Shown one piece after another: positions 11,875 to 35,344 of a stretch of DNA of 35,344 bases. Within the stretch, counting starts at the first letter, position 1, and each line of letters opens with the position of its first letter. The notes under the pieces are model-generated. The model had not been told where the DNA came from and ran no database searches. It was given only the letters and a program-made list of their open reading frames with translations. Location of the stretch: the IMG/VR virus record IMGVR_UViG_3300039050_000103, positions 1 through 35,344 of that record, one strand, 5' to 3'. The position numbers and the translations under genes are program-made. Source of the stretch: a virus.

Positions 11875-12027
11875 ATGCCAAAACTTGTAATAACAGAAGA
11901 AATGCTTGACGCTATTGAAGCTGTCAAAGGAGTAAGGGATGCAAATTATTGGGATCCTAATTGCAAAAGATATATGGAGAAACAACAAAATTCAAAAAAA
12001 GATGTAAAAAAGACTGAAAAGAGTTAA
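11875..12027 (+). CDS. Small hypothetical protein (50 aa)
   Basis: A 50-aa ORF starting two bases after the tail terminator stop. It reads MPKLVITEEMLDAIEAVKGV, then a tryptophan/aspartate segment (YWDPNCKRYMEKQQ) and a lysine-rich tail. One cysteine is present. The family is not recognised. Its tight placement and codon use like that of its neighbours support it as a real gene. It is followed by a 29-base spacer with a TATAAATA box before the tail-tube gene. Confidence 0.55.
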   Translation: MPKLVITEEMLDAIEAVKGVRDANYWDPNCKRYMEKQQNSKKDVKKTEKS

Positions 12028-24136: not shown

Positions 24137-24155
24137 ATTTCTGCTATGTTATTAA

Positions 24156-24203
24156 TAGAAGTAGGAATTGGCAGAAGTAAGACACTATTTATTTCTACTT
24201 CTA
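24156..24203 (+). repeat. Imperfect hairpin between 24136 and 24215
   Basis: TAGAAGTAG at 24156-24164 is the exact reverse complement of CTACTTCTA at 24195-24203, with a 30-base loop that contains a further AGAAGTA copy. The 78-base spacer has no gene. The loop is long and no T-run follows directly, so it is a weak terminator candidate or a protein binding site. Confidence 0.3.
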
Positions 24204-24214
24204 ATAATTAAGTT

Positions 24215-24715
24215 ATGGATATAATTTTACCTAATTTACCAGATACCTCAGATGTACTTGTACCACCTAAAACAATTTTTTATCCACCTGTAGTGGAAGA
24301 GCCTTTTTTAGATCCAATTCTTTTGCCGAGTCTGGAACAGGTAGAGTCGGGATTGCAGGTAGATCAGGGAGGTAGCTCTTCAACAGAAAAGGAACCAAAA
24401 GAGGAAGTGAAAGGTATAAACCCAGAACAGATACCAAAGAACCTGCCACAAAACTTAGAAAATACTTCATCTGAAACTGTAGCTACATTTAATATACCAT
24501 TTATTAATTATGAATTTCCTGTACCCTCCCCAGAGGTAATTGCAAGTTCTGTTATCGCTAGTGGAGTATCAGCAACAGCAGCAGTTACAGGATCAATAAT
24601 TTTACAAAGTATCATTAATCAATTAAAGAAAATAATGACAAAAATATTTAAAAAAGTTCTTAAAAAAGAAGTCGCAAATGTTAAGGAAAAGATGGATAAT
24701 AAAAAAGGTAGCTAG
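24215..24715 (+). CDS. Proline-rich protein with one membrane segment (166 aa)
   Basis: A 166-aa protein, the last of the rightward late block. Residues 1-60 are rich in Pro, Leu and Val (LPNLPDTSDVLVPPKTIFYP, later EPFLDPILLPSLEQ). Residues about 60-85 are charged. A single hydrophobic helix at about 105-132 (VIASSVIASGVSATAAVTGS) is followed by a strongly lysine-rich tail (KKIMTKIFKKVLKKEVANVK). The Pro-rich part, one membrane helix and a basic end suggest a membrane-anchored protein, possibly linked to lysis or to the cell envelope. I do not recognise the family with certainty. It ends within the stem of a convergent terminator. Confidence 0.65.
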   Translation: MDIILPNLPDTSDVLVPPKTIFYPPVVEEPFLDPILLPSLEQVESGLQVDQGGSSSTEKEPKEEVKGINPEQIPKNLPQNLENTSSETVATFNIPFINYEFPVPSPEVIASSVIASGVSATAAVTGSIILQSIINQLKKIMTKIFKKVLKKEVANVKEKMDNKKGS

Positions 24716-24757
24716 AGTTCACATTCCTGTACTATGTGGTGTCTAAACTAGCTACTT
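24706..24757. terminator. Bidirectional terminator between convergent genes
   Basis: GTAGCTAG (24708-24715) pairs with CTAGCTAC (24748-24755), extended by two weaker pairs. The 32-base loop holds an inner stem CACAT/ATGTG. The outer stem is flanked by A6 on the left (T-run for leftward transcripts) and AAATTTTT on the right. The stop codons of both convergent genes (TAG at 24713-24715 and TAG complement at 24752-24754) lie in the two arms of the stem. Confidence 0.6.
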
Positions 24758-25276
24758 AAATTTTTCAGAGTTAGCTTTTACATAACTTCGTATATTAATT
24801 ACATCGCTACAAATATATGCAAACTTAGAGTTAGGGTTAATCATATATCCCGATGCGTGAAGCTGACTACATTTCAAAACACGAACTAGTTGTTTATCAT
24901 GCTCTTGCTTGTTTAGTTCTTCTTTGGCTTGCTCTAGTTTTATCTTGGATAATTCGTTACAAGTTTCATTATCCCCTAATGGAATCATAAAAGATAATTG
25001 AACACCCCAACCTTCGTTAATACTGTATGTTTCTCCTCCTTGTGCATCATTACCTGTATAAAAAGGGGTAACAGCCATTGTCGGTTGACTACAAACTAAA
25101 GTTCCAAACTGTTGTTTGCCTGTCATTCCATTATTAATATTCATGTTTTGATTGATGATACTAGAGTTGCCAACAGCATTGGGTTGAGCAGTTACATTAG
25201 TATCAGATTCAGCTTTGACTGAATTACTGACTAAACACAGACAAGCTAGTAATAACGCTTGTAGTCGTAATGTCAT
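24752..25276 (-). CDS. Secreted protein of unknown function (174 aa)
   Basis: A 174-aa protein with a clear signal peptide: basic start MTLRLQ, hydrophobic core ALLLACLCLVSNS, likely cut after VKA-ES. The mature part has an Asn-rich stretch (NSSIINQNMNINNGMTGKQQ), FGTLVCSQPTMAVTPFYTG, GWGVQLSFMIPLG, a helical charged segment (LSKIKLEQAKEELNKQEHDK) and paired cysteines. It is exported to the periplasm or outer surface. The family is not known to me. It overlaps the upstream secreted gene by 53 bases, is the last gene of a leftward trio, and ends at a convergent terminator. Phages rarely carry exported proteins outside lysis or superinfection exclusion, so those are the main options. Confidence 0.75.
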   Translation of the reverse strand: MTLRLQALLLACLCLVSNSVKAESDTNVTAQPNAVGNSSIINQNMNINNGMTGKQQFGTLVCSQPTMAVTPFYTGNDAQGGETYSINEGWGVQLSFMIPLGDNETCNELSKIKLEQAKEELNKQEHDKQLVRVLKCSQLHASGYMINPNSKFAYICSDVINIRSYVKANSEKFK

Positions 25277-25583
25277 CTGTCTGTGTAATCTTTTCTATCA
25301 TTTGGCTGGCTGCTTTTGTTGTTATTGATAATGACCAATCTGCAGTAGTATCTTCTACTGTAAAAACAGCGTCACCACCAGCAATACCAGCAGAAGCAGC
25401 AACGGAAATATTAGAACCTTCCCAACTTTCAACTGCAGCACCATATTTTTCAGTAACAATAGTGCGGTTAATTGTTTGTGTAGTATTTTCAGTTCTATTA
25501 CTTGAACCAGTTGTCCAAGAAGGTACTGTATTCGCATAAATAGGGCTAGAAAAAAGTAAACCTATAAGTAATAGTTTTTTCAT
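25224..25583 (-). CDS. Second secreted protein of unknown function (119 aa)
   Basis: A 119-aa protein with a signal peptide (MKKLLLIGLLFSSPIYANT, probable cut after YA-N). The mature part is Thr/Ser/Asn-rich (SNRTENTTQTINRTIVTEKY) with GAAVESWEGSNISVAASAGI and a beta-rich rest (VFTVEDTTADWSLSITTKA). No cysteines. It overlaps the membrane-protein gene upstream by 4 bases and the other secreted gene by 53. I have a vague memory of the TEKYGAAVESWEGSNI pattern in cyanophage proteins of unknown function, which is not proof. Adhesion, envelope binding or exclusion of other phages are all possible. Confidence 0.75.
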   Translation of the reverse strand: MKKLLLIGLLFSSPIYANTVPSWTTGSSNRTENTTQTINRTIVTEKYGAAVESWEGSNISVAASAGIAGGDAVFTVEDTTADWSLSITTKAASQMIEKITQTDDITTTSVITSLSVFSQ

Positions 25584-25819
25584 TTGATGCCAACTTTTGA
25601 GTTCTTATTATCTACTATAGTATCTTTTTTCTTTTTTATCGAAAAACCTAGTGATGCGGTTGATGCTGAAAAAATCGAAGCAATAAAAGTCGGGTCAAAA
25701 TCTACAATTTTTTTGCCTGATGGAGGTTCATAGTATGAAAGGGATAAAAGTGTTGCTGACCACAAAAGTACGCAAACTTTTACAATGGTTTCAACTTTAC
25801 TTGGTTCTTGATCTTCCAT
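25580..25819 (-). CDS. Small two-helix membrane protein (holin candidate)
   Basis: The ATG at 25819 (MEDQEPSKVE) is preferred to an upstream one at 25861, because the longer version only adds a short, unlikely leader. The product is 79 aa with two hydrophobic segments (about residues 11-30, VKVCVLLWSATLLSLSYY, and 43-62, FIASIFSASTASLGFSI) and a basic cytoplasmic tail (KKKKDTIVDNKNSK). Size, two helices and a charged end fit a class II holin. No endolysin is found near it, so the lysis role is not shown. It starts the leftward trio and overlaps the next gene by 4 bases. Confidence 0.6.
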   Translation of the reverse strand: MEDQEPSKVETIVKVCVLLWSATLLSLSYYEPPSGKKIVDFDPTFIASIFSASTASLGFSIKKKKDTIVDNKNSKVGIK

Positions 25820-25935
25820 AAAAAAAAAGCTGCTTGTGGGTATCTTTAAGCATTTGACCACTGCTTAACAAACAGCCATGTGCCAAATGTAGCATTTCTT
25901 GTTATGTTTGGAAAGTAACACACACATTTAACATA

Positions 25936-26097
25936 ATGTTAAAAATTTTAAGGCCTATTTTAACAACTTTTTTTACAACAACTGCTGTAAAAAGGTTGGT
26001 TGTTGATTTATTAAGAACTATTTGCAAACAAACTACTAATACTCTTGATGATAAGGCTGTAGATATTTTAGAAAAACAGTTGTTTCCAGATAAATGA
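25936..26097 (+). CDS. Small hypothetical protein (53 aa)
   Basis: A 53-aa ORF that starts MLKILRPILTTFFTTTAVKR and continues LVVDLLRTICKQTTNTLDDK, then AVDILEKQLFPDK. The (R/K)(R/Q)T.N.LDD.AV.(I/L)(V/L)E pattern is familiar from short phage proteins near lysis or early regions; function unknown. The N-terminal half is hydrophobic and could associate with membrane. The stop overlaps the ATG of the next gene (ATGA at 26094-26097), which supports both. It is divergent from the secreted-protein trio, with about 116 bases between them where promoters for both must lie. Confidence 0.6.
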   Translation: MLKILRPILTTFFTTTAVKRLVVDLLRTICKQTTNTLDDKAVDILEKQLFPDK

Positions 26098-26369
26098 ACA
26101 TAAAAAAATTTCTCAACATAGATATAGAGGAAGCACCAGCAGAGTTGCAACTATCTGTTGAAATGCGTTGTAGAGAAATCATGCAGAGTGAAGATTATGA
26201 CAATATAAAAAGATACTGCACACATTTAGTAAGACACCAAATGCATCAAGATGTTTTTCTTGCTTCTATTCTTGGTAGGTTGGTAGAACTAGAAGCAGAA
26301 AATGTAGTAAAAAAAGTAAGAAATAAACCAAACCTTATAAAAAGATTCAAAAAAAGATTTTTTAAATAA
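26094..26369 (+). CDS. Hypothetical protein (91 aa)
   Basis: A 91-aa, mostly helical protein: MNIKKFLNIDIEEAPAELQL, then MRCREIMQSEDYDNIKRYC, HLVRHQMHQDVFLASILGRL, an acidic segment and a lysine/arginine-rich end. The family is not recognised. Two-gene rightward operon with the previous 53-aa gene (4-base overlap). It is followed by 7 bases and then the hairpin at 26384-26398, which serves the opposite strand. Coding potential is supported by the overlap and by the absence of any better reading on either strand. Confidence 0.65.
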   Translation: MNIKKFLNIDIEEAPAELQLSVEMRCREIMQSEDYDNIKRYCTHLVRHQMHQDVFLASILGRLVELEAENVVKKVRNKPNLIKRFKKRFFK

Positions 26370-26376
26370 TTTTCAT

Positions 26377-26398
26377 AAAAAAACCCGCATATGGCGGG
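26377..26398 (-). terminator. Intrinsic terminator of the leftward early operon
   Basis: On the minus strand the order is CCCGC, five-base loop, GCGGG, then seven T. The stem is 26384-26388 with 26394-26398; the A-run 26377-26383 gives the U-tract. It stands downstream of the last leftward gene (ends 26420) and also faces the converging 26094-26369 gene. On the plus strand there is no T-run, so it is directional. Confidence 0.85.
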
Positions 26399-26419
26399 CC
26401 TTATCTTAACAACTTTATT

Positions 26420-26533
26420 TTAATGGTAAAGTCTTTGTTTTTCAATAGTTTTTTTCATAGACCAATAACGAATTAAAGTTTTTAATTGATTTATACGTTT
26501 TTTTGCAGCAGTAATTTTTTCTTTTGTATTCAT
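26420..26533 (-). CDS. Lysine-rich micro-protein (37 aa), last gene of leftward operon
   Basis: A 37-aa ORF (MNTKEKITAAKKRINQLKTL, then IRYWSMKKTIEKQRLYH) placed two bases after the upstream gene's stop and just before the operon terminator. It is a single amphipathic, highly basic helix (12 Lys/Arg). The family is not recognised. The support is its tight placement at the end of the operon. Confidence 0.5.
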   Translation of the reverse strand: MNTKEKITAAKKRINQLKTLIRYWSMKKTIEKQRLYH

Positions 26534-26535
26534 AA

Positions 26536-26832
26536 TTAGCTTTCGTATTTTTTTATATAGGCTTGTTTTTCCTCTTCTGTAAAGTCTTTCATTTGCATTT
26601 TGTTAACTTTATCGACTTGATAATTATGTTTTAGAATTGCTGTTTTTATATGTTCAACAACCCAACGACCTTGCTCTGTTACAACTTGTGCTTTACCTCT
26701 TTCGTTTATAAAAACATAATGGTCATAACCTTTTAAAGTATCATCAAGCAACTGTTTTTCCATTTTTTGTAAACGTAATTCTTTAAGTTTGTCTAACTTA
26801 ATTTTGAATTTGTTTTTGTTGTATTCACTCAT
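26536..26832 (-). CDS. Hypothetical protein (98 aa)
   Basis: A 98-aa charged protein: KNKFKIKLDKLKELRLQKME is a basic helix, followed by LKGYDHYVFINERGKAQVVT and a helix ending KQAYIKKYES. The middle segment (YVFINERGKAQVVTEQGRWV) looks like a small beta hairpin. No known motif or cysteine. It overlaps the upstream gene by 8 bases. Function unknown; its position at the end of the recombination operon gives little guidance. Confidence 0.65.
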   Translation of the reverse strand: MSEYNKNKFKIKLDKLKELRLQKMEKQLLDDTLKGYDHYVFINERGKAQVVTEQGRWVVEHIKTAILKHNYQVDKVNKMQMKDFTEEEKQAYIKKYES

Positions 26833-27235
26833 TTGTTTCTCCTTTTAATTTTTTGTGTGAACCATCTTTAAAATCTTTTACAAAAACCTCTTTCATTTTT
26901 TGCCAACAAGCTTTTATTTTACTATTAGAAAAATTGTTGCCAGAGATTGTTTCGCATTCTTTTTCAGAAAATTCATAGTTAAGAAAAAAATCGTCCCAAT
27001 CAATAAATATAGCTTTATTTGCAACAGCGCTTGCATATTCATCTACTGTATCTATATTTGTAAATTCAACGCAACGTAAAATGCTTACATACAAAATTTC
27101 TGTATTTTTTCCATATTGTATGGTTACACATTTAAACTTAGCACCATCAAAGCTACGAATAACTGTTTTACCCATTAAGTCTGGATAATCAATAGCAAGT
27201 TTTTTTCTTTTATTTGAAAAGTTAAATAAACTCAT
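26825..27235 (-). CDS. Hypothetical protein (136 aa)
   Basis: A 136-aa protein: a basic start (MSLFNFSNKRKKLAI), DYPDLMGKTVIRSFDGAKFK, CVTIQYGKNTEILYVSILRC, an acidic middle with FIDWDDFFLNYEFSEKECET and a basic end. It contains five cysteines, without a clear zinc-binding spacing. No family is recognised. The start overlaps the aminotransferase stop by 4 bases, and the end overlaps the next gene by 8, so it is in a continuous translational unit with both. Confidence 0.65.
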   Translation of the reverse strand: MSLFNFSNKRKKLAIDYPDLMGKTVIRSFDGAKFKCVTIQYGKNTEILYVSILRCVEFTNIDTVDEYASAVANKAIFIDWDDFFLNYEFSEKECETISGNNFSNSKIKACWQKMKEVFVKDFKDGSHKKLKGETNE

Positions 27236-28509
27236 TTTAATGCTACCCCCTTACCAGTTAATCTTGTCATAAAAGCTGCAAAGCCTTCTGCAACCGCTTC
27301 TGTTTCTTTCTCTGTAAAGTGCAAAGGTAATCTAAGGTCAAATACATTGTCTAAAATAGATTTTGTATATTTACAAATATCTTCATACCTAATTGTATAA
27401 GGTAAAAATCGCCAATTCCAAAATAATCTTGCATTTGTATTATTTGTTCCACCTAAGTATGAAATAGGTATATTTGAGCTATTACAAAGATGCAAAAGGC
27501 TCATTTTACATTTTTCATCTAAATCAATTTGCATTTGAATAGAATCTCGCACAGGTCTATTCATAGCTGTATAACCAGCAAGAACACCCTCTGGAATTAA
27601 ATTTTCTAACCTTGTTGGGTCAATTAAATATTGATCTGAAAGTGGAAAAGTAATTTGTTTAAATTCTTTCATCTTTTCTTTAAACAACATATAATTTTTA
27701 TTTGTTTGAATAATTGTATTTTCAATCATCTGTAGTTGTGGTCTTGCAATAGCTGCACTTAAATTATTTAACCGACAGTTATAAACTGGTAATTGACATC
27801 TATATTTATTGCCACCACGACCTTCTATCATATGTAGTTTGTAATTGTTTTCATAAGCACCTGACATATGAATACATTGCCACATTAACTCTTCATTATT
27901 AGAAACTATAATGCCACCTTCCCCTGCATTAAGCATCTTATAAGATTGCATTGAATAAATACCAATATCTCCCCATGTACCAGCCATTTTTCCATTATGT
28001 TTTACGCCAAGTGCGTGTGCTGCATCTTCAATAAGCACTACTTGAAAAGCTTTACATAATTCAACTACTTTTGACATTTCTGGCATATGACCACGCATAT
28101 GAGAAAGCAAAAGAAATCTTGGCCTTGTTCTAATAATTTTGTTTTTTAAATCAGATAAACTGATTACATATTGGTCATTACATTCAACAAGAATGGGATT
28201 TCCACCAGCTTGTATTACAGCACTTGGTACCGCAACAAAAGTAAATGCTGGTATTAGTACTTTGTCATCATGTTTAACACCACAAGCTTTTAGTGCTAAA
28301 AAAATACCGTTAGTTGCAGAAGAAACAGCCAAAGCATATTTGCAATTAACATACTCAGTAATTTCTTTTTCAAGATGTGTTACATCACTTGTCGTTTCTT
28401 TGTATTGATAACGAAAAAGTTTTTTTGTTTTTAGTGCTGCTTGTATAGCGTTATTTACTAGGTCAGTATTAAGTTCTGCACCCCAGTTGATTTTTTCTAA
28501 TTCAGTCAC
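27232..28509 (-). CDS. DegT/DnrJ/EryC1/StrS-family PLP aminotransferase
   Basis: A 425-aa enzyme starting at GTG. Family marks are SSATNGIFLALKACGV (cofactor phosphate and substrate region, about 63-78), DDKVLIPAFTFVAVPSAV, LIEDAAHALGV (Asp162 to the pyridine ring, His165) and SMQSYKMLNAGEGG with the PLP-binding Lys191, then YNCRLNNLSAAIARPQL. It probably transfers an amino group to a keto-sugar, as in building amino sugars for surface glycans, or is a related enzyme. The C-terminal part is longer than in typical 370-aa members. It lies in the leftward operon with DNA recombination genes, an odd place for a sugar enzyme. All catalytic residues are present. Confidence 0.9.
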   Translation of the reverse strand: MTELEKINWGAELNTDLVNNAIQAALKTKKLFRYQYKETTSDVTHLEKEITEYVNCKYALAVSSATNGIFLALKACGVKHDDKVLIPAFTFVAVPSAVIQAGGNPILVECNDQYVISLSDLKNKIIRTRPRFLLLSHMRGHMPEMSKVVELCKAFQVVLIEDAAHALGVKHNGKMAGTWGDIGIYSMQSYKMLNAGEGGIIVSNNEELMWQCIHMSGAYENNYKLHMIEGRGGNKYRCQLPVYNCRLNNLSAAIARPQLQMIENTIIQTNKNYMLFKEKMKEFKQITFPLSDQYLIDPTRLENLIPEGVLAGYTAMNRPVRDSIQMQIDLDEKCKMSLLHLCNSSNIPISYLGGTNNTNARLFWNWRFLPYTIRYEDICKYTKSILDNVFDLRLPLHFTEKETEAVAEGFAAFMTRLTGKGVALK

Positions 28510-28861
28510 AGTCGGAACATTTAAATTGTAAAGGTTGTTTTAAAACCATCGCTGATAAAACCAGCATGGCCATTTTTGTTGGTGGTTGCTCGTTACTAAA
28601 TGGCATAATTTTTTGATTTGCCAGATGTAATCCTTCGTTGGAAACTATCAAAGAATGTTCTGCTGATAATTTTTCACCATGGCTTTTATCTAATTGAGAA
28701 AACAAAATGCCATCGCCATATTGCTTGTTATTACAAGTATGTGGTCTAAAGTCAAACCAATCGAGATCAAAGCACTCAAGACCAAGAGCAAGATGGTCTT
28801 GAAATACTTTTACATTATGTGGCAGTTTAGGATTAGATACTCTTTTAAGCACTTTTGTCAT
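28502..28861 (-). CDS. Hypothetical protein upstream of the aminotransferase (119 aa)
   Basis: A 119-aa protein: LKRVSNPKLPHNVKVFQDHL, LECFDLDWFDFRPHTCNNKQ, a YGDGILFSQLDKSHGEKLSA segment and a C-terminal QPLQFKCSDCD. The CxxC at the very end and the single earlier Cys-His pair could bind a metal, but this is not a recognised pattern. The end overlaps the aminotransferase GTG by 8 bases. It follows the SSB-like gene after only two bases. Unknown function; its coupling to the aminotransferase hints that they act together. Confidence 0.65.
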   Translation of the reverse strand: MTKVLKRVSNPKLPHNVKVFQDHLALGLECFDLDWFDFRPHTCNNKQYGDGILFSQLDKSHGEKLSAEHSLIVSNEGLHLANQKIMPFSNEQPPTKMAMLVLSAMVLKQPLQFKCSDCD

Positions 28862-28863
28862 TG

Positions 28864-29148
28864 TTAAAAAGGCATTTCTTCTTTTTCTTCTTTAAGTACA
28901 GAGATTGACCCTGATACAAAAGATGAACCATTTTTAGACATTCTGTTCCAAGCACTTACTGGTATCTTGACAACTTTTTCACCAGCATAATTTTCTTCGC
29001 CTTCTTGTGCTGTAATCCACTCTGTAAGTGCCATGGCATCTGATAAAGTAAATTCAATATTGCCACCAAAGTCTGGTGACTTTTCTGACTTTTTATCATT
29101 ATTGTCAAAGAGGACAAGACGTCCTGTAAAAAGGTTTTCGTAGGCCAT
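28864..29148 (-). CDS. SSB-like protein with acidic C-terminal tip (94 aa)
   Basis: A 94-aa protein: MAYENLFTGRLVLFDNNDKK, SPDFGGNIEFTLSDAMALTE, WITAQEGEENYAGEKVVKIP and VSGSISVLKEEKEEMPF. The last residues, acidic then M-P-F, mimic the conserved D-D-x-(I/L)-P-F tip of bacterial single-strand binding proteins, used to recruit repair partners. The short beta strands in the body could form a reduced OB-fold. The context (Rad52-type annealing protein and RecE-like exonuclease just upstream) fits a phage ssDNA-binding protein. The family itself is not named here; the tail and context are the evidence. Confidence 0.65.
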   Translation of the reverse strand: MAYENLFTGRLVLFDNNDKKSEKSPDFGGNIEFTLSDAMALTEWITAQEGEENYAGEKVVKIPVSAWNRMSKNGSSFVSGSISVLKEEKEEMPF

Positions 29149-29150
29149 AA

Positions 29151-29387
29151 TTAAAAAGATTTAATAGGAATAATTGAATTTGTTTCTTCCCAAGCAAGAA
29201 CTTGGGGTAAGGCATACCGAATGAGTGGTTTACCCAAAGCAGTAGCCTGTCGTGGCACGTTGTACCACTGTGGACCTTCTTCTTTACCTCGCCTAGTACT
29301 TGTTCTCCACTTCTTTATGGTTCTTTCTGTAATACCATATCTTTCAGCGAGGTCTTTGGTAGATAAGTAGGGTTGATCTTGTTCCAT
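29151..29387 (-). CDS. Excisionase/AlpA-like HTH protein (78 aa)
   Basis: A 78-aa protein with a MerR/AlpA-like helix-turn-helix at about residues 8-28 (LSTKDLAERYGITERTIKKW), followed by a basic wing (RTSTRRGKEEGPQWYNVPRQ) and a LIRYALPQVLAWEE helix. Such proteins act as excisionases or small regulators. Without an integrase in view, a regulator of early genes is as likely; it is the only small DNA-binding regulator clearly seen in the operon and so a candidate for binding the CCGAACA sites. The ATG overlaps the last base of the annealing gene stop. Confidence 0.75.
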   Translation of the reverse strand: MEQDQPYLSTKDLAERYGITERTIKKWRTSTRRGKEEGPQWYNVPRQATALGKPLIRYALPQVLAWEETNSIIPIKSF

Positions 29388-30067
29388 TACTTAAGCTTCA
29401 TTTGTTTAGAAATAATTGCTCTGTCTAGTTCGATTTTTTGTTCTTGGGTTAGTTTACCTTGAGCAAATCTAGTGGCAATATTTTTTTTATGGTCTGTTAA
29501 TTGATCTACAGAAGTAGCAATTTCTATAGCTTTTTTTGCAAGACCAAAAGTAACATCAGTATCTGGTTTGTTTGATACTTTTTCTTGTACTTGTTTTCGC
29601 AAAGTTTCTATAACCTCGCCTTTGTTTTCTGAAGGTTTTGGTTTATTTGTTTTCCAACTTTTGTCTTTACCGTTGTACAAAGATAAACCAAACTGGTTAC
29701 CAAACTGCATAAAGGCTCTTTTTCGTGCATCGGTTTCTGCTTCTTTTACTGCTGATTCAAACTTTTCGCCAAGAGAACCAAAACGACCATGACCAGCCCC
29801 TGTACCTTCTTTAACCACATCACCAACAGTAATTCTTACTCTTGCAATATATGTGATACATTTTGGGTCTTCGGAAACAAGAAATGTCTCCAAAGTTTCT
29901 GATGCCCAGCCATCAAATCCAAAGATGCGATTGGCTTCGGCTATAACATGCCAGCCTTCAACATAAGCTAGTTGGAAGGTACCCTCTCGGTTTCCATCTC
30001 TCTCTTTAACGTTTTTTGCGAGTATTGGCTCTTTGAGCATCTCGTTTTGTTTTTCTGTAAAAGTCAT
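29387..30067 (-). CDS. Rad52/22-family single-strand annealing protein
   Basis: The start is taken at the ATG at 30067 (MTFTEKQNEM), five bases after the exonuclease stop; the longer frame would overlap that gene by 74 bases. The 226-aa product has the family core: REGTFQLAYVEGWHVIAEAN, RIFGFDGWASETLE, YIARVRITVGDVVKEGTGAG, then EKFESAVKEAETDARKRAFM and QFGNQFGLSLYNG. These match phage Rad52-like recombinases that coat ssDNA and anneal complementary strands. The C-terminal third is variable and basic. It works with the RecE-like exonuclease encoded directly upstream. Confidence 0.88.
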   Translation of the reverse strand: MTFTEKQNEMLKEPILAKNVKERDGNREGTFQLAYVEGWHVIAEANRIFGFDGWASETLETFLVSEDPKCITYIARVRITVGDVVKEGTGAGHGRFGSLGEKFESAVKEAETDARKRAFMQFGNQFGLSLYNGKDKSWKTNKPKPSENKGEVIETLRKQVQEKVSNKPDTDVTFGLAKKAIEIATSVDQLTDHKKNIATRFAQGKLTQEQKIELDRAIISKQMKLK

Positions 30068-30071
30068 TTTT

Positions 30072-30878
30072 TTAGTTTGTTTTGTAAGCCCAACTTGGTA
30101 GGCTGAGTGTTTGGATTTCTTCTGCATACCCATGCCAATAAGCATCTGTATGGCATTTAGAAATTTGTTTTAAGGCAGCTTGTCTAAGACGTTTGCCTTC
30201 GGCAAGTGCTTCTTCGTCTAACTCTGTAATGCTTATGGCATATGGATAGACTTTTTCAACTGCTATAAATACAAATCGCTTTGCACCAACTACTGATAAG
30301 TAATGAGCAGCTTGCAAATGGTAAAGGTAATTCGCTACTGACTTAATAAATTTGTCTGGGTGGCTGTTACCCTCGCCAGTTGTTTTTAGGTCGATAATAG
30401 TATCGCCATTTAGAAAGTCGCATCTTGCTTTACAAGTAAGACCAGTTTCTTTGTCCTCTTTCCAAAAGCTTTGTTCGGCAAGACCAACAGAAAGAAGTTT
30501 GTTTGCTATCGGGTGTGACCAAACAGCGTTGGCAACATTAGATGCAAGCTCGTATTCTTGGTTTGTAATAGGCTCTATGCCTTTGGCTGCCATTTCTTCT
30601 GCTTGCACTTTACCAGCTTTGGTTGATCTACTAAGGCAAACACCATAAGCTTTTTTTGCTCTGTCTGGTTCTAAAGTAAATGCGTGGCAAAGCTCGCCAG
30701 TTCTAAAAGCTTTTTTAAGTGCTGGTTCGTGTTCTAATTTTTTCTGTTCGTATTTGCTTTGGTAAAACACTTGCGGACAAGTGCTTGTAATAAGCTTCAG
30801 ATCGCTGGCAGAATACGCTGGGTCTGCATGATATACCTCTGCTGGTATATACTCTGAGTCTGTATTAATCTTTGGCAT
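30072..30878 (-). CDS. RecE-like PD-(D/E)XK exonuclease (YqaJ/PDDEXK_1-type)
   Basis: A 268-aa nuclease. The N-terminal AYSASDLKLITSTCPQVFYQ and ALKKAFRTGELCHAFTLEPD are typical of the RecE/DUF3799 group. The catalytic core is E135 in AEQSFW, D154 in ARCDFL, then D163 and K165 in IIDLKTT, followed by Q189 and Y193 in YHLQAAHYL. These residues bind magnesium and cut DNA 5' to 3', leaving 3' tails for the annealing protein encoded next. Its start overlaps the upstream coiled-coil gene by 14 bases. The exonuclease plus annealing protein form a lambda Red-like recombination pair. All expected catalytic residues are visible. Confidence 0.9.
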   Translation of the reverse strand: MPKINTDSEYIPAEVYHADPAYSASDLKLITSTCPQVFYQSKYEQKKLEHEPALKKAFRTGELCHAFTLEPDRAKKAYGVCLSRSTKAGKVQAEEMAAKGIEPITNQEYELASNVANAVWSHPIANKLLSVGLAEQSFWKEDKETGLTCKARCDFLNGDTIIDLKTTGEGNSHPDKFIKSVANYLYHLQAAHYLSVVGAKRFVFIAVEKVYPYAISITELDEEALAEGKRLRQAALKQISKCHTDAYWHGYAEEIQTLSLPSWAYKTN

Positions 30879-31128
30879 TAAGTTTATCCTCTAGGTTTGC
30901 GATACGAAGTTCAAGCATGGTAATTGTTTCTGCTTGCTTAACGATAAAGTCTTTGATGATGTTAGTTTTTTCATCTAAGGCATTACAAGTAGCATCTGTA
31001 TTTTCGCCTAGCTTTTGTACTATGTTTGTAAGTTCTATACAACCTCGTACAATTTCAAGCTTATTTACAGCTTGTGTTTTTTCTTGCTCTTTTAAAGTTT
31101 CAAGAATTTTTTGCATATCTCTTACCAT
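30865..31128 (-). CDS. Coiled-coil protein (87 aa)
   Basis: An 87-aa protein almost entirely helical: MQKILETLKEQEKTQAVNKL, IVRGCIELTNIVQKLGENTD and a final ITMLELRIANLEDKLNAKD with a leucine-type heptad. Two cysteines. It probably forms a dimeric or trimeric coiled coil. It overlaps the exonuclease start by 14 bases and the upstream membrane-peptide gene by 7. Function unknown; it might be a partner of the nuclease by context. Confidence 0.65.
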   Translation of the reverse strand: MVRDMQKILETLKEQEKTQAVNKLEIVRGCIELTNIVQKLGENTDATCNALDEKTNIIKDFIVKQAETITMLELRIANLEDKLNAKD

Positions 31129-31256
31129 TTAGTTACCTCTTGGCAAGCTAGTTCTACACCAGCACGACAATCTGCTTTGGTCATGTCTTGAAGTGATGAA
31201 GTAAGTGCAGTATATAAAATACCGCCTACTGCTAAGTAAAGTAGAAAGTGCTTCAT
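31122..31256 (-). CDS. Small membrane peptide (44 aa)
   Basis: A 44-aa ORF beginning MKHFLLYLAVGGILYTALTS, one hydrophobic helix or an uncleaved signal anchor, then SLQDMTKADCRAGVELACQE with two cysteines that could form a disulfide after export. Overlaps on both sides (ATGA with the upstream gene; 7 bases with the coiled-coil gene) support translation. I do not recognise it. Small periplasm-facing peptides in early operons sometimes block other phages, but nothing shows that here. Confidence 0.55.
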   Translation of the reverse strand: MKHFLLYLAVGGILYTALTSSLQDMTKADCRAGVELACQEVTKW

Positions 31257-31429
31257 GCGTTTGCCCTCTGTCTTAGTAAGAATGAAAGCTGCTTTCTGTA
31301 CTTAGCAACATTTTTCTTAGCTGTACTTAAGTCTTGCCAGTTACCTGTCGCACAGCAGAAAGCGTAACTGTCTTGGGCTTCTTGGAACTTGACCTTTACT
31401 TGGTCTATCTCTTGCTGAAGTGTTAGCAT
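31253..31429 (-). CDS. Small hypothetical protein (58 aa), first gene after promoter A
   Basis: A 58-aa ORF (MLTLQQEIDQVKVKFQEAQD, SYAFCCATGNWQDLSTAKKN, a basic end) that follows the promoter-leader at 31430-31512. It is mostly helical with a central CC pair. No Shine-Dalgarno sequence precedes the ATG; the leader is C- and A-rich. It overlaps the next gene by 4 bases (ATGA). The family is not recognised. Confidence 0.6.
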   Translation of the reverse strand: MLTLQQEIDQVKVKFQEAQDSYAFCCATGNWQDLSTAKKNVAKYRKQLSFLLRQRANA

Positions 31430-31512
31430 TTGTTTGTGGGGGTTGTGGACTCTCGCCCTGATACTTCAATTATAGTCAAGCTTTTCCCCATTGGCTACCC
31501 CACCATGTTCGG
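31430..31512 (-). promoter_or_regulatory. Promoter-leader module A (leftward)
   Basis: Read on the minus strand: CCGAACA (31506-31512), GGGGAA, then TATAAT (31469-31474) 31 bases after CCGAACA, followed by TGAAGTATCA, a hairpin GGGC-GAGA-GTCC (31447-31458) and ACAACCCCC before the ATG at 31429. The same elements in the same order recur at 33204-33286, 33295-33386 and 33770-33851. It drives the recombination operon from inside, downstream of the HNH gene. Confidence 0.8.
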
Positions 31513-31532
31513 TTTGTTTATTGGTGTAACAT

Positions 31533-32048
31533 TTAGGGGTTATAAAATTTTCCATATAACTCTTTACCTTTTTGGTCTCTTGCTTTTAACGCCATCTCCA
31601 ATGTAGGAAAAGACCCTACATAATGGCTCTTATTCTGTTGATGCATACAAACAACATATGGGTTAGTTGTCTGGTGGCTTTGATAAGTAATTGACTTATG
31701 GCCAGAGGTATTATTAGTACCTTTTAATCTGTTAGAACTATTTTGTTGTATAGTTGCTTTTCTAAGATTTGTAAAAGCATTATCACTTTTATTATGGTTT
31801 ATATGGTCGACCTCATATGGCCATGGGTCTTTTTTAGTTACTAATAGCCAAGCAACCCTATGTGCTGCACAATCTTGTTTATTTATAGATAAATAAAGGT
31901 AACCAGTTTTTTTTAGATAACCAGCCTTTGTACCAGCTTTTACATTAGATTTATTGACTTTCCAAGTCAAAACACCAGTAATGATGTTGTAAGTGAGTAG
32001 TTCATTAACAACATCAAATGGTGGCAGTTTTTTTGCCCTACAGTACAT
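31533..32048 (-). CDS. HNH endonuclease with AP2-like end
   Basis: A 171-aa protein. The HNH site reads AHRVAWLLVTKKDPWPYEVD, HINHNKSDNAFTNLRKATIQ, QNSSNR, with the DH, the second N and the final H/N in the usual order. The C-terminal part (YVVCMHQQNKSHYVGSFPTL, EMALKARDQKGKELYG) looks like an AP2 DNA-binding domain. Free-standing HNH-AP2 proteins are phage homing endonucleases that cut a rival's DNA and spread by repair. It sits between the DUF2958 gene and promoter A, and could be removed without breaking other genes, as expected for a selfish insert. Confidence 0.88.
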   Translation of the reverse strand: MYCRAKKLPPFDVVNELLTYNIITGVLTWKVNKSNVKAGTKAGYLKKTGYLYLSINKQDCAAHRVAWLLVTKKDPWPYEVDHINHNKSDNAFTNLRKATIQQNSSNRLKGTNNTSGHKSITYQSHQTTNPYVVCMHQQNKSHYVGSFPTLEMALKARDQKGKELYGKFYNP

Positions 32049-32375
32049 CTAGTCAGTACCGTTAGATATTTTTAATAAAAGTTCTTTTTCTTTTATAGGG
32101 TCAAAGCAGATGTCTCTTTCAACTGGTAAGCCAAAAGGACCTCTTAGTTCTTTTATTTCTTTCATATCGAAAGAACCAAACTCTTGTTCGTGACCTTTTA
32201 CCAAACCCCAAGCAATTTCTGTCTCTGGGTCGTATTCAGCAATAAACCAAGTCCAGTTGCTATCGGGTGTGAATAGCTTTACATAAAAGACCATTTCTTG
32301 TGATAGGTCATCATGTGCTGGTTGGCTGTAAAGCTTAGGAAGTTTTTTTAAGATTTCTTTTGTTAAGAGTTTCAT
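32049..32375 (-). CDS. DUF2958-family protein (108 aa)
   Basis: A 108-aa protein with LLTKEILKKLPKLYSQPAHD, VFYVKLFTPDSNWTWFIAEY, WGLVKGHEQEFGSFDMKEIK and LRGPFGLPVERDICFDP. The pattern LL....LP.L, VKLF.P...WTW(Y/F)..E.D, GLV.G.E.E.G.F....(L/I), GLP(V/I)ERD..F is that of DUF2958, common on plasmids and phages, function unknown. It overlaps the upstream 46-aa gene by 4 bases. The match is strong by eye. Confidence 0.85.
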   Translation of the reverse strand: MKLLTKEILKKLPKLYSQPAHDDLSQEMVFYVKLFTPDSNWTWFIAEYDPETEIAWGLVKGHEQEFGSFDMKEIKELRGPFGLPVERDICFDPIKEKELLLKISNGTD

Positions 32376-32512
32376 TGTTTTTTGTAAAGTGATTTTAAGT
32401 AAGTTGTTTCTATAGTTTTGCGAAGCTGTAGGTAAAGTTCATTGGTCATGTTTTCTAACAAGTACCGATCATTTAACCTACTTATTGCTTCGTCAAATTC
32501 TTTCTTTGTCAT
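32372..32512 (-). CDS. Small hypothetical protein (46 aa)
   Basis: A 46-aa helical ORF (MTKKEFDEAISRLNDRYLLE, NMTNELYLQLRKTIETTYLK, a basic end) with 4-base overlap to the DUF2958 gene and one base shared with the upstream stop. It is not recognised. The overlaps and the absence of any other reading support it. Confidence 0.55.
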   Translation of the reverse strand: MTKKEFDEAISRLNDRYLLENMTNELYLQLRKTIETTYLKSLYKKQ

Positions 32513-32700
32513 TAGAAAGGTTGATGCCAATTAATGTATTGTGAAGTTGATATGTCTCCACTCTTACAGAGTGAATCTGTATAATCATTCCACATTGTTC
32601 TTTTAGCAGTAACATCTGTCCTACGGTAGATAGTATTTTTCCAAAGTTCGTTAAAACATCTAAGTGCTTCTGCTTTGGTCATGTAACGAGAGGTGGCCAT
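32512..32700 (-). CDS. Small hypothetical protein (62 aa)
   Basis: The start is the ATG at 32700 (MATSRYMTKAEALRCFNELW), which overlaps the upstream TAA (TAATG); a longer frame to 32760 would overlap the upstream gene by 61 bases. The 62-aa product is helical, with three tryptophans, two cysteines and an ending DISTSQYINWHQPF. The family is not recognised. It lies in the first part of the leftward operon behind promoter D. Confidence 0.6.
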   Translation of the reverse strand: MATSRYMTKAEALRCFNELWKNTIYRRTDVTAKRTMWNDYTDSLCKSGDISTSQYINWHQPF

Positions 32701-33203
32701 TATATGACCCCTCTGTTCTTGTAAAGATGACCACCAAATGGGTCTAAGTGTTTGAAACAAAGCTGCAAACTTTCTTCATCTAATAGGTTGTATCTAGCAC
32801 CTTTTGCTGGTTTGTTCCAGCCTGCTGGTTTATAGATGTCGCCAGTTTGTCTATCTATAAAAGCTTCAACACATTCGTGCTTATCGTGTTGAACACCATT
32901 TTCACTTGTAAATGGTTCTTCTGTTCTGATGACTTTAAAATACTTGCGACCTGTTTGATAAATGTAATGGGTTACCCATTGTGGGTGCATACCATTATCT
33001 TCGTGCCACTTCTTCATAGAAAGAAAAAGTTTGTTGCAATAAAGTTGAGTTTGTTTCTCAACTAATTGTTCTTGTGTAAGAAGTGTTAAAGAGCCCTTAT
33101 TGGACTCTTTTTCTTTTTTATGTTCCTCTATAAGAGGAGTAATAAATTGATCAAACTCTTTTTGTTCTTCTGGAGTAAGAATCTTTGGTTTTTGTTGGCT
33201 CAT
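32700..33203 (-). CDS. Phage protein with YKPAGW motif (167 aa), first gene after promoter D
   Basis: A 167-aa protein. The N-terminal third is charged (LTPEEQKEFDQFITPLIEEH). The C-terminal half has GRKYFKVIRTEEPF, VEAFIDRQTGDIYKPAGWNK, PAKGARYNLLD. The segment KY.K(V/I)I, (V/A)FID..TG(D/N)(I/L)YKPA(G/S)W..PAK..R(Y/F)NL is a pattern I recall from phage hypothetical proteins, some of them in marine phages. The function is unknown. It follows leader D, again without a clear Shine-Dalgarno sequence. Confidence 0.7.
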   Translation of the reverse strand: MSQQKPKILTPEEQKEFDQFITPLIEEHKKEKESNKGSLTLLTQEQLVEKQTQLYCNKLFLSMKKWHEDNGMHPQWVTHYIYQTGRKYFKVIRTEEPFTSENGVQHDKHECVEAFIDRQTGDIYKPAGWNKPAKGARYNLLDEESLQLCFKHLDPFGGHLYKNRGVI

Positions 33204-33286
33204 TAGTTTTTTGAGGTTGGGAGCATCTCTGCCCTATGATTCAATACTATCATTCCCTAAAGTGTATGTACAGGGACAATGTTCGG
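33204..33286 (-). promoter_or_regulatory. Promoter-leader module D (leftward)
   Basis: On the minus strand: CCGAACA (33280-33286), GGGAA (33253-33257, closer to the -10 than in the other copies), TAGTAT (33244-33249) 30 bases after CCGAACA, then TGAATCATA and a hairpin GGGCA-GAGA-TGCTC (33221-33234), followed by CCAACCTC. The ATG is at 33203. It is divergent from module B, and the two CCGAACA boxes face each other. Confidence 0.75.
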
Positions 33287-33301
33287 AACATAAACCGAAC
33301 A
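33280..33301. promoter_or_regulatory. Operator-like inverted repeat between divergent promoters
   Basis: GTTCGG (33281-33286) and CCGAAC (33295-33300) form a perfect inverted repeat with an 8-base spacer. A smaller palindrome TGTTC-G-GAACA (33280-33290) lies inside. The boxes are shared with modules D and B, so one dimeric regulator could act on both promoters. Confidence 0.65.
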
Positions 33302-33386
33302 CTAATGGTAGACAATGGGGAACAGTATGTTATAATGGTAGTAAGGGCAAGAGATTGTCCTTATTGAACCTCGACATTTTAATACT
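33295..33386 (+). promoter_or_regulatory. Promoter-leader module B (rightward)
   Basis: CCGAACA (33295-33301), TGGTA, GGGGAA (33317-33322), TATAAT (33331-33336) 29 bases after CCGAACA, then the best hairpin of the set: a 9-bp stem 33342-33350/33355-33363 with loop GAGA (one G-U pair). It is followed by TTGAACCTC and the ATG at 33387. No standard -35 box and no Shine-Dalgarno sequence are visible. Confidence 0.8.
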
Positions 33387-33719
33387 ATGGAAAATGCTAA
33401 ACGCATTAAACTTGCCATCTGCGTCTTTGGGCATGGCGGTTCATATCAAGTCTGGGCAACTGGCTCAGATAAGAATATTGTACTTGCAACCAAAGCAGCA
33501 AGAAAAGCAAAAAGGGATTACAAAATTAAAAAAGGTTTTGTAATGCCAGTGAATCTCTATGACATCACTGATACTGAACACTGGGCATACGATGGTTACA
33601 CTATTGTTAACCCAGACAAAGTTGATAAAGAGTCAGAGAGCTACAAGAACGACATTTACAATGAGTTTAGAGGCGCAGAGCCAATTAAACGAATTGAAGT
33701 TTTAGAAGTGGTTCTTTAG
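33387..33719 (+). CDS. Hypothetical protein (110 aa) under module B
   Basis: A 110-aa protein starting at ATG 33387 after leader B. It has IKLAICVFGHGGSYQVWATG, NIVLATKAARKAKRDYKIKK, FVMPVNLYDITDTEHWAYDG and an acidic C-terminus ending RIEVLEVVL. The first part may be a small alpha/beta fold. No family is recognised. It is one of only two rightward genes inside an otherwise leftward early region, each with its own copy of the shared promoter, which suggests an early regulatory or host-takeover job. That is inference only. Confidence 0.65.
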   Translation: MENAKRIKLAICVFGHGGSYQVWATGSDKNIVLATKAARKAKRDYKIKKGFVMPVNLYDITDTEHWAYDGYTIVNPDKVDKESESYKNDIYNEFRGAEPIKRIEVLEVVL

Positions 33720-33726
33720 AAAATAC

Positions 33727-33750
33727 AAGCTGCTTTTAATCGGGCAGCTT
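33727..33750 (+). terminator. Hairpin after the 110-aa gene (weak terminator)
   Basis: AAGCTGC (33727-33733) pairs with GCAGCTT (33744-33750), a 7-bp stem with a 10-base loop. It is followed by TCTTA, a poor T-run, so termination may be partial. It lies between the stop at 33719 and promoter module C. Confidence 0.45.
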
Positions 33751-33769
33751 TCTTACACCAGTTAAGGAA

Positions 33770-33851
33770 CCGAACACTTAATGGTACATCTAGGGGAAAC
33801 TTAGATTATAATTGAGATATAGGGAGAGATCCCACAACCCCCGAGGACTAA
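33770..33851 (+). promoter_or_regulatory. Promoter-leader module C (rightward)
   Basis: CCGAACA (33770-33776), TGGTA, GGGGAA (33793-33798), TATAAT (33807-33812) 30 bases after CCGAACA, then TGAGATATA, hairpin GGGA-GAGA-TCCC (33822-33833) and ACAACCCCC. Unlike the other leaders it has a ribosome binding site, GAGG, five bases before the ATG at 33852. Confidence 0.8.
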
Positions 33852-34028
33852 ATGACTAACGAAGAAAAAATTAATTTTCTTACAGATGGTTACCAAGCTT
33901 GGATTAAAAACCAAGACTTACCAAACATGAGTGCAGATGAACTTCTTTACTCTGACCACCCTTTAACAGAACCACAAAGAAAGTGGTTAAGAGACTTTAA
34001 CAACACTTGGGAAACTGAGATTGACTAA
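33852..34028 (+). CDS. Small acidic protein (58 aa) under module C
   Basis: A 58-aa ORF with GAGG upstream, reading MTNEEKINFLTDGYQAWIKN, QDLPNMSADELLYSDHPLTE, then a helix ending NNTWETEID. It is acidic, with three tryptophans and no cysteine, and probably all helical. No family is recognised. It has a dedicated promoter of the shared type and a strong terminator 111 bases after its stop, so it is a single-gene unit. Small acidic early proteins often bind and alter host proteins; nothing in the sequence specifies a target. Confidence 0.65.
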   Translation: MTNEEKINFLTDGYQAWIKNQDLPNMSADELLYSDHPLTEPQRKWLRDFNNTWETEID

Positions 34029-34087
34029 CACTTAGGTTGACTAGGTACTATTGTTATCATTAAAGCGTAAGTAATCTTTCCTTAAAG

Positions 34088-34139
34088 AACCGCCTTACCG
34101 CCTTTCTAAAAAAACCGCCTTACCGCCTTTCTAAAAAAA
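34088..34139 (+). repeat. Two tandem 25-bp repeats (ACCGCCTT units)
   Basis: The unit AACCGCCTTACCGCCTTTCT plus five A occurs exactly twice in tandem (34088-34112, 34113-34137), followed by the start of a third. Each unit contains ACCGCCTT twice, giving four copies. The repeats lie in a 247-base gap between the 58-aa gene and rusA. Iteron-like spacing near a replication-initiator gene suggests an origin, but a small RNA ending at the terminator that follows is also possible. Confidence 0.8.
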
Positions 34140-34163
34140 CCCTGTACAAAGGGTCTTTTTTTT
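34139..34163. terminator. Strong intrinsic terminator, bidirectional
   Basis: ACCCT (34139-34143) and AGGGT (34150-34154) form a stem with a six-base loop, followed by C and eight T (34156-34163). On the other strand the A-run before the stem gives seven T after it, so leftward transcripts from rusA can end here too. Confidence 0.85.
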
Positions 34164-34183
34164 GTTTATTGTGTATTATTAAG

Positions 34184-34279
34184 ATAATCAGGGAGCCTGA
34201 TGCCCGTTGCAACACGAGGGCTGAAAGCTGTTATGGCAGGGCGGTCTCGGCGAGGTTGACCGATCTATCCCCTGATTAT
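34184..34279. other. GC-rich foldable element (structured RNA or DNA candidate)
   Basis: A perfect 10-bp stem, ATAATCAGGG (34184-34193) with CCCTGATTAT (34270-34279), encloses 76 bases much richer in G+C than the surroundings. Inside are GCCC (34202-34205)/GGGC (34218-34221), a weak CTG/CAG (34228-34230/34237-34239) and CGGTC (34242-34246)/GACCG (34258-34262), so a multi-branched fold is possible. The right arm overlaps the stop codon of rusA. No long reading frame explains it. It could be an RNA on either strand, a replication-origin structure, or a recombination site. I do not recognise a known class. Confidence 0.5.
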
Positions 34280-34704
34280 TCATCTAGTTCAACGACAAGT
34301 ATATCTGCACCCACCTCTTCGCCTTCTTCGCAGTACCTTTTCTTAGCAGTAAGAATTGTTACCAAAGAATCATCTACAAATGTTATTCCGCTAAGAGCAT
34401 CTAAACTAGACCTTACGAGTTTATCTAGGTCATTTTTTCGAACAGTAACATTTCTAGGTGACCCTGTACGGAGACAGCCATTGGTGTAATAATGAGCCTT
34501 CGGCCTCTTAAAACGAAAAGTGGCTTCTACATAACAAGCACCCTTGATAGGTGGTTGTTTTATTTTACTAGCTTCCCTTTTAACCAATTCTCGCCATGGT
34601 TTTACTCTTTTACTTACTTCGATCATTCGACCCTTTCCAATATATTTTTTACTCCCTTGCGGTGCTGCTTCAAGACCATTTACAGAGAATTTAAAAGATG
34701 TCAT
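34276..34704 (-). CDS. rusA: RusA-family Holliday junction resolvase
   Basis: A 142-aa protein of typical RusA length. N-terminal FSVNGLEAAPQGSKKYIG matches the F.V.G.P.PQ.S.R opening. The catalytic region is VRKNDLDKLVRSSLDALSGI, then TFVDDSLV; Asp92, Asp94 and Asp111/112 are the expected metal ligands. It resolves branched recombination or replication intermediates, as in other lambda-like phages. Its first codon overlaps the first codon of the rightward replication gene head to head (34698-34704). Its stop lies in the 3' arm of the GC-rich element and the terminator at 34139-34163 would end its mRNA. It is separate from the exonuclease/annealing operon. Confidence 0.93.
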   Translation of the reverse strand: MTSFKFSVNGLEAAPQGSKKYIGKGRMIEVSKRVKPWRELVKREASKIKQPPIKGACYVEATFRFKRPKAHYYTNGCLRTGSPRNVTVRKNDLDKLVRSSLDALSGITFVDDSLVTILTAKKRYCEEGEEVGADILVVELDE

Positions 34705-35344
34705 TCAATCCACAAGGGTATCAATTTACCGCACTACCAACAAATCTTAGAGGTAAAATACAACCAAATCAACTAGCTGTATTATGGGTAATACAAAGCT
34801 ATGCAAACAAAGATGATCAACAATGCTGGCCATCTTTGAAGACAATAGCTGATAATGCTTGTCTAAGTAAGAGAACCGCACAGAAAGTTGTTAACCAATT
34901 AGTGTCTCTTGGTCTATTAGAGAGAACACACCAAACTGGAAAAAATGGAGAACAAAATAGCAACTTGTATAAAGTAACTGTTTGGCATCTAGCTAATGTG
35001 CCAGAACCTAGTATTAATAGGCGTGGCAAATCCTGCACCCCTGCACCAGATGCTACGCCCCTATGGCAGGAAATGCCATGCCCCATAGCAGCAGATGCCA
35101 CCAAACTAGATACAATTAAACTAGATACAAAAGAACTAAATAAAAAAAATACTAAAAAAGATTATTCTGATGACTTTTTAGAATTTTGGTTTATGTACTT
35201 AGACATTAAAAAAAGAGCTAGTGGCCAGAATAAACCAAAAGCATGGGAAGAATGGAAAAAAGCTATAAAGAAAACAACACCAGTAAATATAAAAATTTCT
35301 CTTATGGCTGCTGTAAAACAACAAAGAGCAACAGAACGAGATGG
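34698..35344 (+). CDS. Winged-helix replication-initiator-like protein (cut by right edge)
   Basis: The frame is open from the ATG at 34698 to the window end (215 codons) with an in-frame stop at 34692-34694, so this is the first possible ATG. Residues about 24-95 are a winged helix-turn-helix (NQLAVLWVIQSYANKDDQQC, WPSLKTIADNACLSKRTAQK, VVNQLVSLGLLER), typical of HTH_36-type phage replication proteins (lambda O role). A low-complexity, Lys/Asp/Leu-rich linker follows. The second domain begins DFLEFWFMYLDIKKRASGQN, PKAWEEWKKAI, a pattern found at the C-terminus of many phage replication proteins. It probably binds the origin and loads helicase. The nearby tandem repeats could be its binding sites. 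Confidence 0.8.
   Translation, partial: MSFNPQGYQFTALPTNLRGKIQPNQLAVLWVIQSYANKDDQQCWPSLKTIADNACLSKRTAQKVVNQLVSLGLLERTHQTGKNGEQNSNLYKVTVWHLANVPEPSINRRGKSCTPAPDATPLWQEMPCPIAADATKLDTIKLDTKELNKKNTKKDYSDDFLEFWFMYLDIKKRASGQNKPKAWEEWKKAIKKTTPVNIKISLMAAVKQQRATERD

Follow-up and report, generated by a model that had tools for sequence, protein, structure and literature searches.

Putative early-promoter cassettes with an operator-like element and a hairpin leader in a siphovirus related to picocyanobacterial phages

The divergent early promoters of bacteriophage lambda, pL and pR, share operators (OL/OR) that overlap the core promoter, and the specificities of operator and repressor (Cro/CI) change together. 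The early leaders of lambda also carry nut boxB, a small hairpin with a GNRA-type loop. In T4-type phages, an early promoter joined to a stem-loop is repeated as the PeSL cassette (Arbiol et al. 2010; Comeau et al. 2014, as cited in PMC4503421), and 5′-terminal stem-loops in general can stabilise mRNA (reviewed in PMC3997798). Here we analyse a virus sequence of 35,344 nucleotides (nt), positions 1 to 35,344 of IMG/VR record IMGVR_UViG_3300039050_000103 (hereafter the window), in which four modules, A to D, join a promoter-like sequence to a small hairpin. We propose that they are probably early-promoter cassettes read by the host sigma70 polymerase, furnished with a phage operator and an mRNA-protecting 5′-terminal hairpin leader, behind which genes are shuffled.

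Direct reading and a pattern search both located modules A and B on the minus strand and C and D on the plus strand (Table 1), in agreement with the original prediction, which had described four copies of one architecture with these spacings. Common to all four are the boxes, their spacing and a leader hairpin with a GAGA loop. The upstream box CCGAACA is separated from the −10 box by 31, 30, 29 and 30 nt in A, B, C and D, respectively. Exact CCGAACA occurs five times in the window, four times in the modules and once, at 30472, in coding sequence. The pattern CCGAACA..TANNNT gave four matches in the window versus none for the reversed control, a stricter grammar of the full module gave three versus none in 200 shuffles, and the element GGTA-N6-GGGGAA was found three times versus 0.015 per dinucleotide shuffle. 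Two details vary between the modules. The hairpin is present in every one, but its outer stem has 4 base pairs (bp) in both A and D, 5 bp in B and at least 8 in C. GGGGAA lies 8-9 nt before the −10 box in three modules (A, C and D) and is thus no feature of all four; B has AGGGAA at 3 nt.

The −10 boxes are TATAAT in A, C and D and a near match, TAGTAT, in B. Module C (TAGACA-16-TATAAT, an 11/12 match) is the best-ranked promoter-like site in 24000-35344, and module A (TAGCCA-17-TATAAT, 10/12) ranks after it in the same scan. The original statement that TTGACA-type −35 boxes are lacking is incorrect for three modules: TAGACA in C resembles TTGACA at 5/6 positions, and TAGCCA in A and TGTACA in B at 4/6 each, all at a host-like spacing of 16-17 bp. 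Module D alone has a poor −35 hexamer (at most 3/6).

Related phages were gathered by pattern scans of IMG/VR and by an exonuclease VIII alignment scan. With any tetraloop permitted, a search of the window plus 19 related IMG/VR contigs recovered 48 modules; boxes and spacing are conserved and the loop is GAGA in 48/48, which bears out the prediction of a coordinated set of early promoters. Some of these contigs had been obtained through the module patterns themselves, which biases the module count towards presence; relatives obtained only through exonuclease VIII (L096-L107) also carry modules. Near-complete genomes have three or four modules each, and every module in the 20 contigs lies in the early region. 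In eight contigs, 122-123 nt separate the loops of the divergent B and C modules. The same scan found the strict marine form of the module in none of the isolate genomes MED4-184, MED4-117, KBS-S-2A and S-H1, and a search of 257 Gb of cellular genomes returned one match, in a Bacteriovoracia bin, which is about the chance expectation and was set aside. The first genes behind the modules fall into 15 unrelated clusters; one type of hairpin precedes different genes, and one gene stands behind different types of hairpin. Judged from these combinations, the modules are exchangeable cassettes.

Upstream of the −10 box lies the GGTA-N6-GGGGAA element, which is rigid in three classes. The starts of GGTA and RGGGAA are a fixed 10 bp apart in A, C and D, and the distance of the whole pair from the −10 box varies by 1 bp. 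In the sister lineage, whose exonuclease is 65-73% identical, RGGGAA is replaced by RGCTAA (GGTA-N6/7-RGCTAA) in several modules of one genome examined. Such a change across the modules of a single genome is the trace expected of a trans-acting DNA-binding protein, and the comparison supports one. The best candidate appears to be a 78-amino-acid helix-turn-helix (HTH) protein encoded in the A operon and present in nearly all relatives. Its predicted recognition helix reads T[EQ]RTIKKWR where the element is RGGGAA and C[MVI]ATVKRWR where it is RGCTAA, with no exception among the loci in which the element was found; this association would fit an operator and its cognate protein. Matches of the protein to excisionase and transcription-regulator families, MerR included, are weak, and among proteins of solved structure the one nearest to it in sequence is a recombination directionality factor. 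Because the element overlies the −35 region and the spacer, its position favours repression. A GGTAGATAGGCTAA element with no hairpin lies outside the early modules of two close sister-lineage contigs (L101, 8556, minus strand; L102, 11295, minus strand), where it is possibly another promoter or a chance occurrence.

As an obligatory operator, CCGAACA was rejected, being absent or changed in several modules, and it is an accessory, less constant site. Between the divergent modules B and C of the window it forms the dyad TGTTCGG-N8-CCGAACA (33280-33301); several relatives have a single, shared CCGAACA at this place, while G011 and G001 carry CTGTCTA instead.

The shared elements could instead bind an activator, for example a MerR-like protein that binds the spacer, and so drive an early burst by positive feedback. 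We consider this possible but unlikely. It would suit the −35 boxes, which are weak compared with the TTGACC of distant relatives, MerR-type activators do bind the spacer, and the candidate has a weak MerR match. However, at 16-17 bp the spacers would not have to be twisted in the MerR manner, the candidate is itself made from module A, which must therefore fire without it, and its kinship to a directionality factor points elsewhere.

The position of the hairpin is nearly constant. The stem begins about 7-10 nt and the loop 12-14 nt after the −10 box, which places the stem 0-4 nt past the start predicted from that box; ATG follows the start of the loop by 22-29 nt in A, B and D and by 36-39 nt in C. 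Folded alone, the local hairpins have energies of −5.5 to −9.1 kcal/mol, and the predicted start codons are mostly free. What follows the hairpin is ACAACCCC, with no T run, so the structure does not have the form of an intrinsic terminator. Among 32 distinct leaders, which had been found partly by demanding a stem of at least 3 pairs and are biased to that extent, 98.4% of the pairs at the four inner positions are standard, 41 changes are two-sided, and the covariation score is 0.928 versus 0.282 for shuffled and at most 0.160 for slid partners. Because of this selection we took an independent set with no hairpin condition, namely the TTGAC-type promoters that precede exonuclease VIII in more distant phages of the group. 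Many of these are directly followed by a GC hairpin and then a CCCCAACC-type leader, as in TTGACC-16-TAGGAT..GGAGGC-GAGA-GCUUCC-ACCCCACACC; others, at the same position, have the loops CGAGA, CAAGC, ACGAC or CCA, and some predicted promoters, which may be false ones, have no hairpin or C-rich leader. Among the isolates, KBS-S-2A and S-H1 have hairpin-plus-C-rich leaders of other forms, with GCGGG-ACACAAG-CCCGC-ACCACCCC in KBS-S-2A, and MED4-184 has AGCCU-GAAG-AGGCU. In a wider set of loci, GAGA is the loop of 54 of 68 distinct leaders, the remaining loops being mostly singletons.

On these comparisons, the general feature is a 5′-terminal hairpin with an unpaired A/C-rich leader, and near-fixation of GAGA is confined to the marine lineage with its close sisters. 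Since distant relatives keep the hairpin and the C-rich leader behind canonical TTGAC-type promoters, the hairpin is better read as an RNA feature, belonging to the transcript, than as part of the promoter signature in which it was originally included. Two more specific proposals were abandoned: recognition of a particular loop as a general rule, as unselected promoters of relatives carry other loops, and the C-run as an outer stem strand, as the matching G-run is missing in many leaders.

A hairpin in early leaders also brings to mind a nut/boxB-like site, in which a phage RNA-binding protein would load on the GAGA loop, with ACAACCCC, at the moment polymerase leaves the promoter, and let it read through the terminators of C and D to reach the replication genes and the late genes. 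As in boxB, the GNRA-type loop is near-invariant and the stems are variable in the marine lineage; moreover, terminator-like hairpins stand behind C and D, and the plus-strand replication gene at 34699 has neither a module nor a good promoter. We nevertheless regard this as distinctly unlikely: there is no boxA-like sequence, and the hairpin, at about +3, precedes any readable boxA; the other loops of distant relatives at the same position mean that the loop is no general recognition signal; no N-like protein was recognised; and the replication gene may start on its own near the structured RNA described below. A version that dispenses with boxA, in which the GAGA hairpin and A/C-rich tail would be the site for a phage protein that modifies the elongating polymerase from the first nucleotides, giving processive antitermination at all early promoters of picocyanobacterial siphophages, strikes us as improbable.

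The original prediction had also allowed for a phage-modified polymerase. Unusual conserved boxes (CCGAACA, GGTA and GGGGAA) do lie upstream of the −10 box, where a phage sigma factor or modified polymerase might read them, and sigma factors are annotated in the related KBS-S-2A and S-CBS1. Yet a Sigma70 region-2 domain was absent from 14/14 module-bearing contigs of the window lineage that were searched, while the same search found one in KBS-S-2A. In addition, the modules retain TATAAT and, in three of four, −35-like hexamers at host spacing; more distant relatives have early promoters with canonical TTGAC-type −35 boxes; and early genes need the unmodified host polymerase unless the factor comes in with the virion. 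These observations give a phage-modified polymerase no support, and we rate this explanation as highly improbable. That the modules are merely young duplicated repeats, as one architecture occurring four times within 2.5 kb and the clear swapping of genes behind them by recombination might suggest, is hardly credible and already contradicted by selective conservation: linkers and stems have diverged whereas the −10 box, loop, rigid spacings and AACCYC are unchanged, stem changes are compensatory, and the modules are kept at 65-73% exonuclease identity and the leader form at about 47%.

We therefore favour host-read early-promoter cassettes. A host sigma70-type polymerase would start early transcription at every module, from a −10 box near TATAAT and a weak TAGACA-like −35 box. 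The GGTA-N6-GGGGAA element of A, C and D would most likely be an operator at which a bound protein competes with polymerase, and a phage-encoded DNA-binding protein, for which the 78-amino-acid winged-HTH protein is the candidate, would later turn these modules down. Each transcript would begin with a leader of near-fixed length, consisting of a hairpin of 4-8 bp about 0-4 nt from the predicted start and then the unpaired stretch that ends at the ATG. Most likely the hairpin protects phage mRNA against decay that depends on the 5′ end, and the A/C-rich stretch would keep the translation start site open; different small genes are swapped behind the same module. In Prochlorococcus, phage infection is accompanied by a rise in RNase E expression (PMC9692554), and a standard leader whose length hardly varies could explain how early mRNA survives this rise.

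Several points weigh against this reading. Class B has neither GGTA nor RGGGAA in register, and CCGAACA is lost or altered in several relatives; the single regulator originally envisaged, although supported by the lineage-specific change from RGGGAA to RGCTAA, was therefore overstated as acting on all early units. The link between element and HTH protein spans two lineages only, so that ancestry confounds co-evolution, and the protein may repress, activate or merely promote excision. As to the leader, a hairpin of 4 bp and about −6 kcal/mol is a modest structure, the folding energy of the whole leader is ordinary (z −0.6 to −1.5), the stem counts carry the selection bias described above, and the invariance of GAGA within the lineage exceeds the need of simple end protection. 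The start sites, finally, are predictions from the −10 box.

The terminase of the window phage shares 53-57% identity with its counterparts in Cyanophage KBS-S-2A, Synechococcus phage S-H1 and Prochlorococcus phages MED4-184, P-HS2 and MED4-117; by this measure the phage is a siphovirus and kin of Prochlorococcus and Synechococcus phages, most likely infecting a marine picocyanobacterium. To the left of the modules lie genes for exonuclease VIII, a Rad52-type protein and the small HTH protein, and to the right genes for a RusA-type resolvase and a replication protein; A and B serve the leftward early genes, C and D the rightward ones. A search for tRNA and tmRNA found none, and an Rfam search gave no match at the gathering cut-off in the window, and just two weak, spurious ones in the early region. 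A segment of about 1.3 kb (24215-25525) is 78% identical in DNA to the T7-like Prochlorococcus podophages P-SCSP1, the remainder of the queried region being unmatched, which suggests exchange between phage groups.

The replication-protein gene (34699-35344, plus strand) lies behind the terminator that follows cassette D, with no module or good promoter upstream, and overlaps the oppositely directed RusA gene. Upstream of it is a conserved structured RNA (Table 1) with an outer stem, AAUCAGGG/CCCUGAUU, and three inner arms. In ten sequences, six of its pairs have changed on both sides and 98.6% of pairs are standard, and G-U pairs indicate the plus strand. Its covariance model also matched a contig of the sister lineage (E 9e-15) and, in the same place, the cultured phages MED4-184 (E 1.6e-8) and MED4-117 (E 5e-9); Rfam had no match for it. 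This RNA could be the leader of the replication or late transcript.

Table 1. Positions of the modules and of other features in the window
Feature	Position	Strand	Remark
Candidate regulator, 78-amino-acid Xis/MerR-like (winged) HTH protein of the A operon	29151-29387	-	
Module A, CCGAACA upstream box	31506-31512	-	
Module A, GGTA-N6-GGGGAA element	31484-31499	-	overlaps −35-like TAGCCA and spacer
Module A, −10 box TATAAT	31469-31474	-	
Module A, leader hairpin GGGC-GAGA-GUCC	31447-31458	-	
Module A, ACAACCCCC after hairpin	31438-31446	-	then ATG of open reading frame 31253-31429
Module B, CCGAACA upstream box	33280-33286	-	
Module B, −35-like TGTACA	33267-33272	-	17 bp from TAGTAT
Module B, −10 box TAGTAT	33244-33249	-	
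Module B, leader hairpin GGGCA-GAGA-UGCUC	33221-33234	-	then CCAACCTC
Module B, first gene (DUF7717)	32700-33203	-	
Module C, CCGAACA upstream box	33295-33301	+	
Module C, GGTA-N6-GGGGAA element	33307-33322	+	contains −35-like TAGACA, 33309-33314
Module C, −10 box TATAAT	33331-33336	+	
Module C, leader hairpin AAGGGCAA-GAGA-UUGUCCUU	33343-33362	+	
Module C, AACCTC	33367-33372	+	
Module C, first gene	33387-33719	+	
Terminator-like hairpin between cassettes C and D	33727-33754	+	read from sequence, absent from the automatic scan lists of the window; homologue in G004 at 11979, found by scan
Module D, CCGAACA upstream box	33770-33776	+	
Module D, GGTA-N6-GGGGAA element	33783-33798	+	
Module D, −10 box TATAAT	33807-33812	+	
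Module D, leader hairpin GGGA-GAGA-UCCC	33822-33833	+	
Module D, ACAACCCCC after hairpin	33834-33842	+	
Module D, first gene	33852-34028	+	
Terminator after cassette D, ACCCTGTACAAAGGGT + T8	34139-34161	+	found by both scans; same in G004
Conserved structured RNA, about 94 nt	34185-34278	+	between terminator after D and 3′ end of RusA gene

In the literature searched, early transcription of the small siphoviruses of Prochlorococcus and Synechococcus appears little described. The cassettes provide a transferable signature for spotting early genes of unknown function in these phages, and a candidate operator/regulator pair that comes in two natural specificities, one for GGGGAA and one for GGCTAA. 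Like lambda pL/pR, the locus has divergent early promoters, a shared operator-like element over the core promoter and a shift of specificity between relatives; it differs in having four promoters rather than two and, in place of an identified Cro/CI-type protein, an Xis-like candidate encoded inside the operon. Like nut boxB, small hairpins with a GNRA-type loop stand in early leaders of both strands, here with no boxA, at about +3 and with a loop that is lost in distant relatives. The PeSL cassettes, as they are cited in PMC4503421, share with the modules a repeated early promoter joined to a stem-loop (here in three or four copies per near-complete genome) and unrelated small genes shuffled behind it among related phages (here 15 first-gene clusters). 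The PeSL stem-loop is, by the title of its description, a terminator, whereas the hairpin here lies in the 5′ leader with no T run, and the modules come in just three or four copies with one strictly spaced extra element. The 5′ stem-loop stabilisers of ompA, papA and others (PMC3997798) are short hairpins preceded by few unpaired bases at the very 5′ end of the mRNA, the place that the predicted starts would give the hairpin here; in this phage group such a hairpin is standard across all early transcripts, at a near-constant distance from the start codon, and would act as a stabiliser by analogy. Intergenic repeats of halovirus HF2 (PMC8707807) also act as promoters, but in an archaeal virus and with another sequence. 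The parts, then, are familiar ones (early promoter cassettes, shared operators and 5′ hairpins); their combination, strict spacing and spread over picocyanobacterial siphophages are, as far as the literature searched shows, with subscription papers largely outside it, new.

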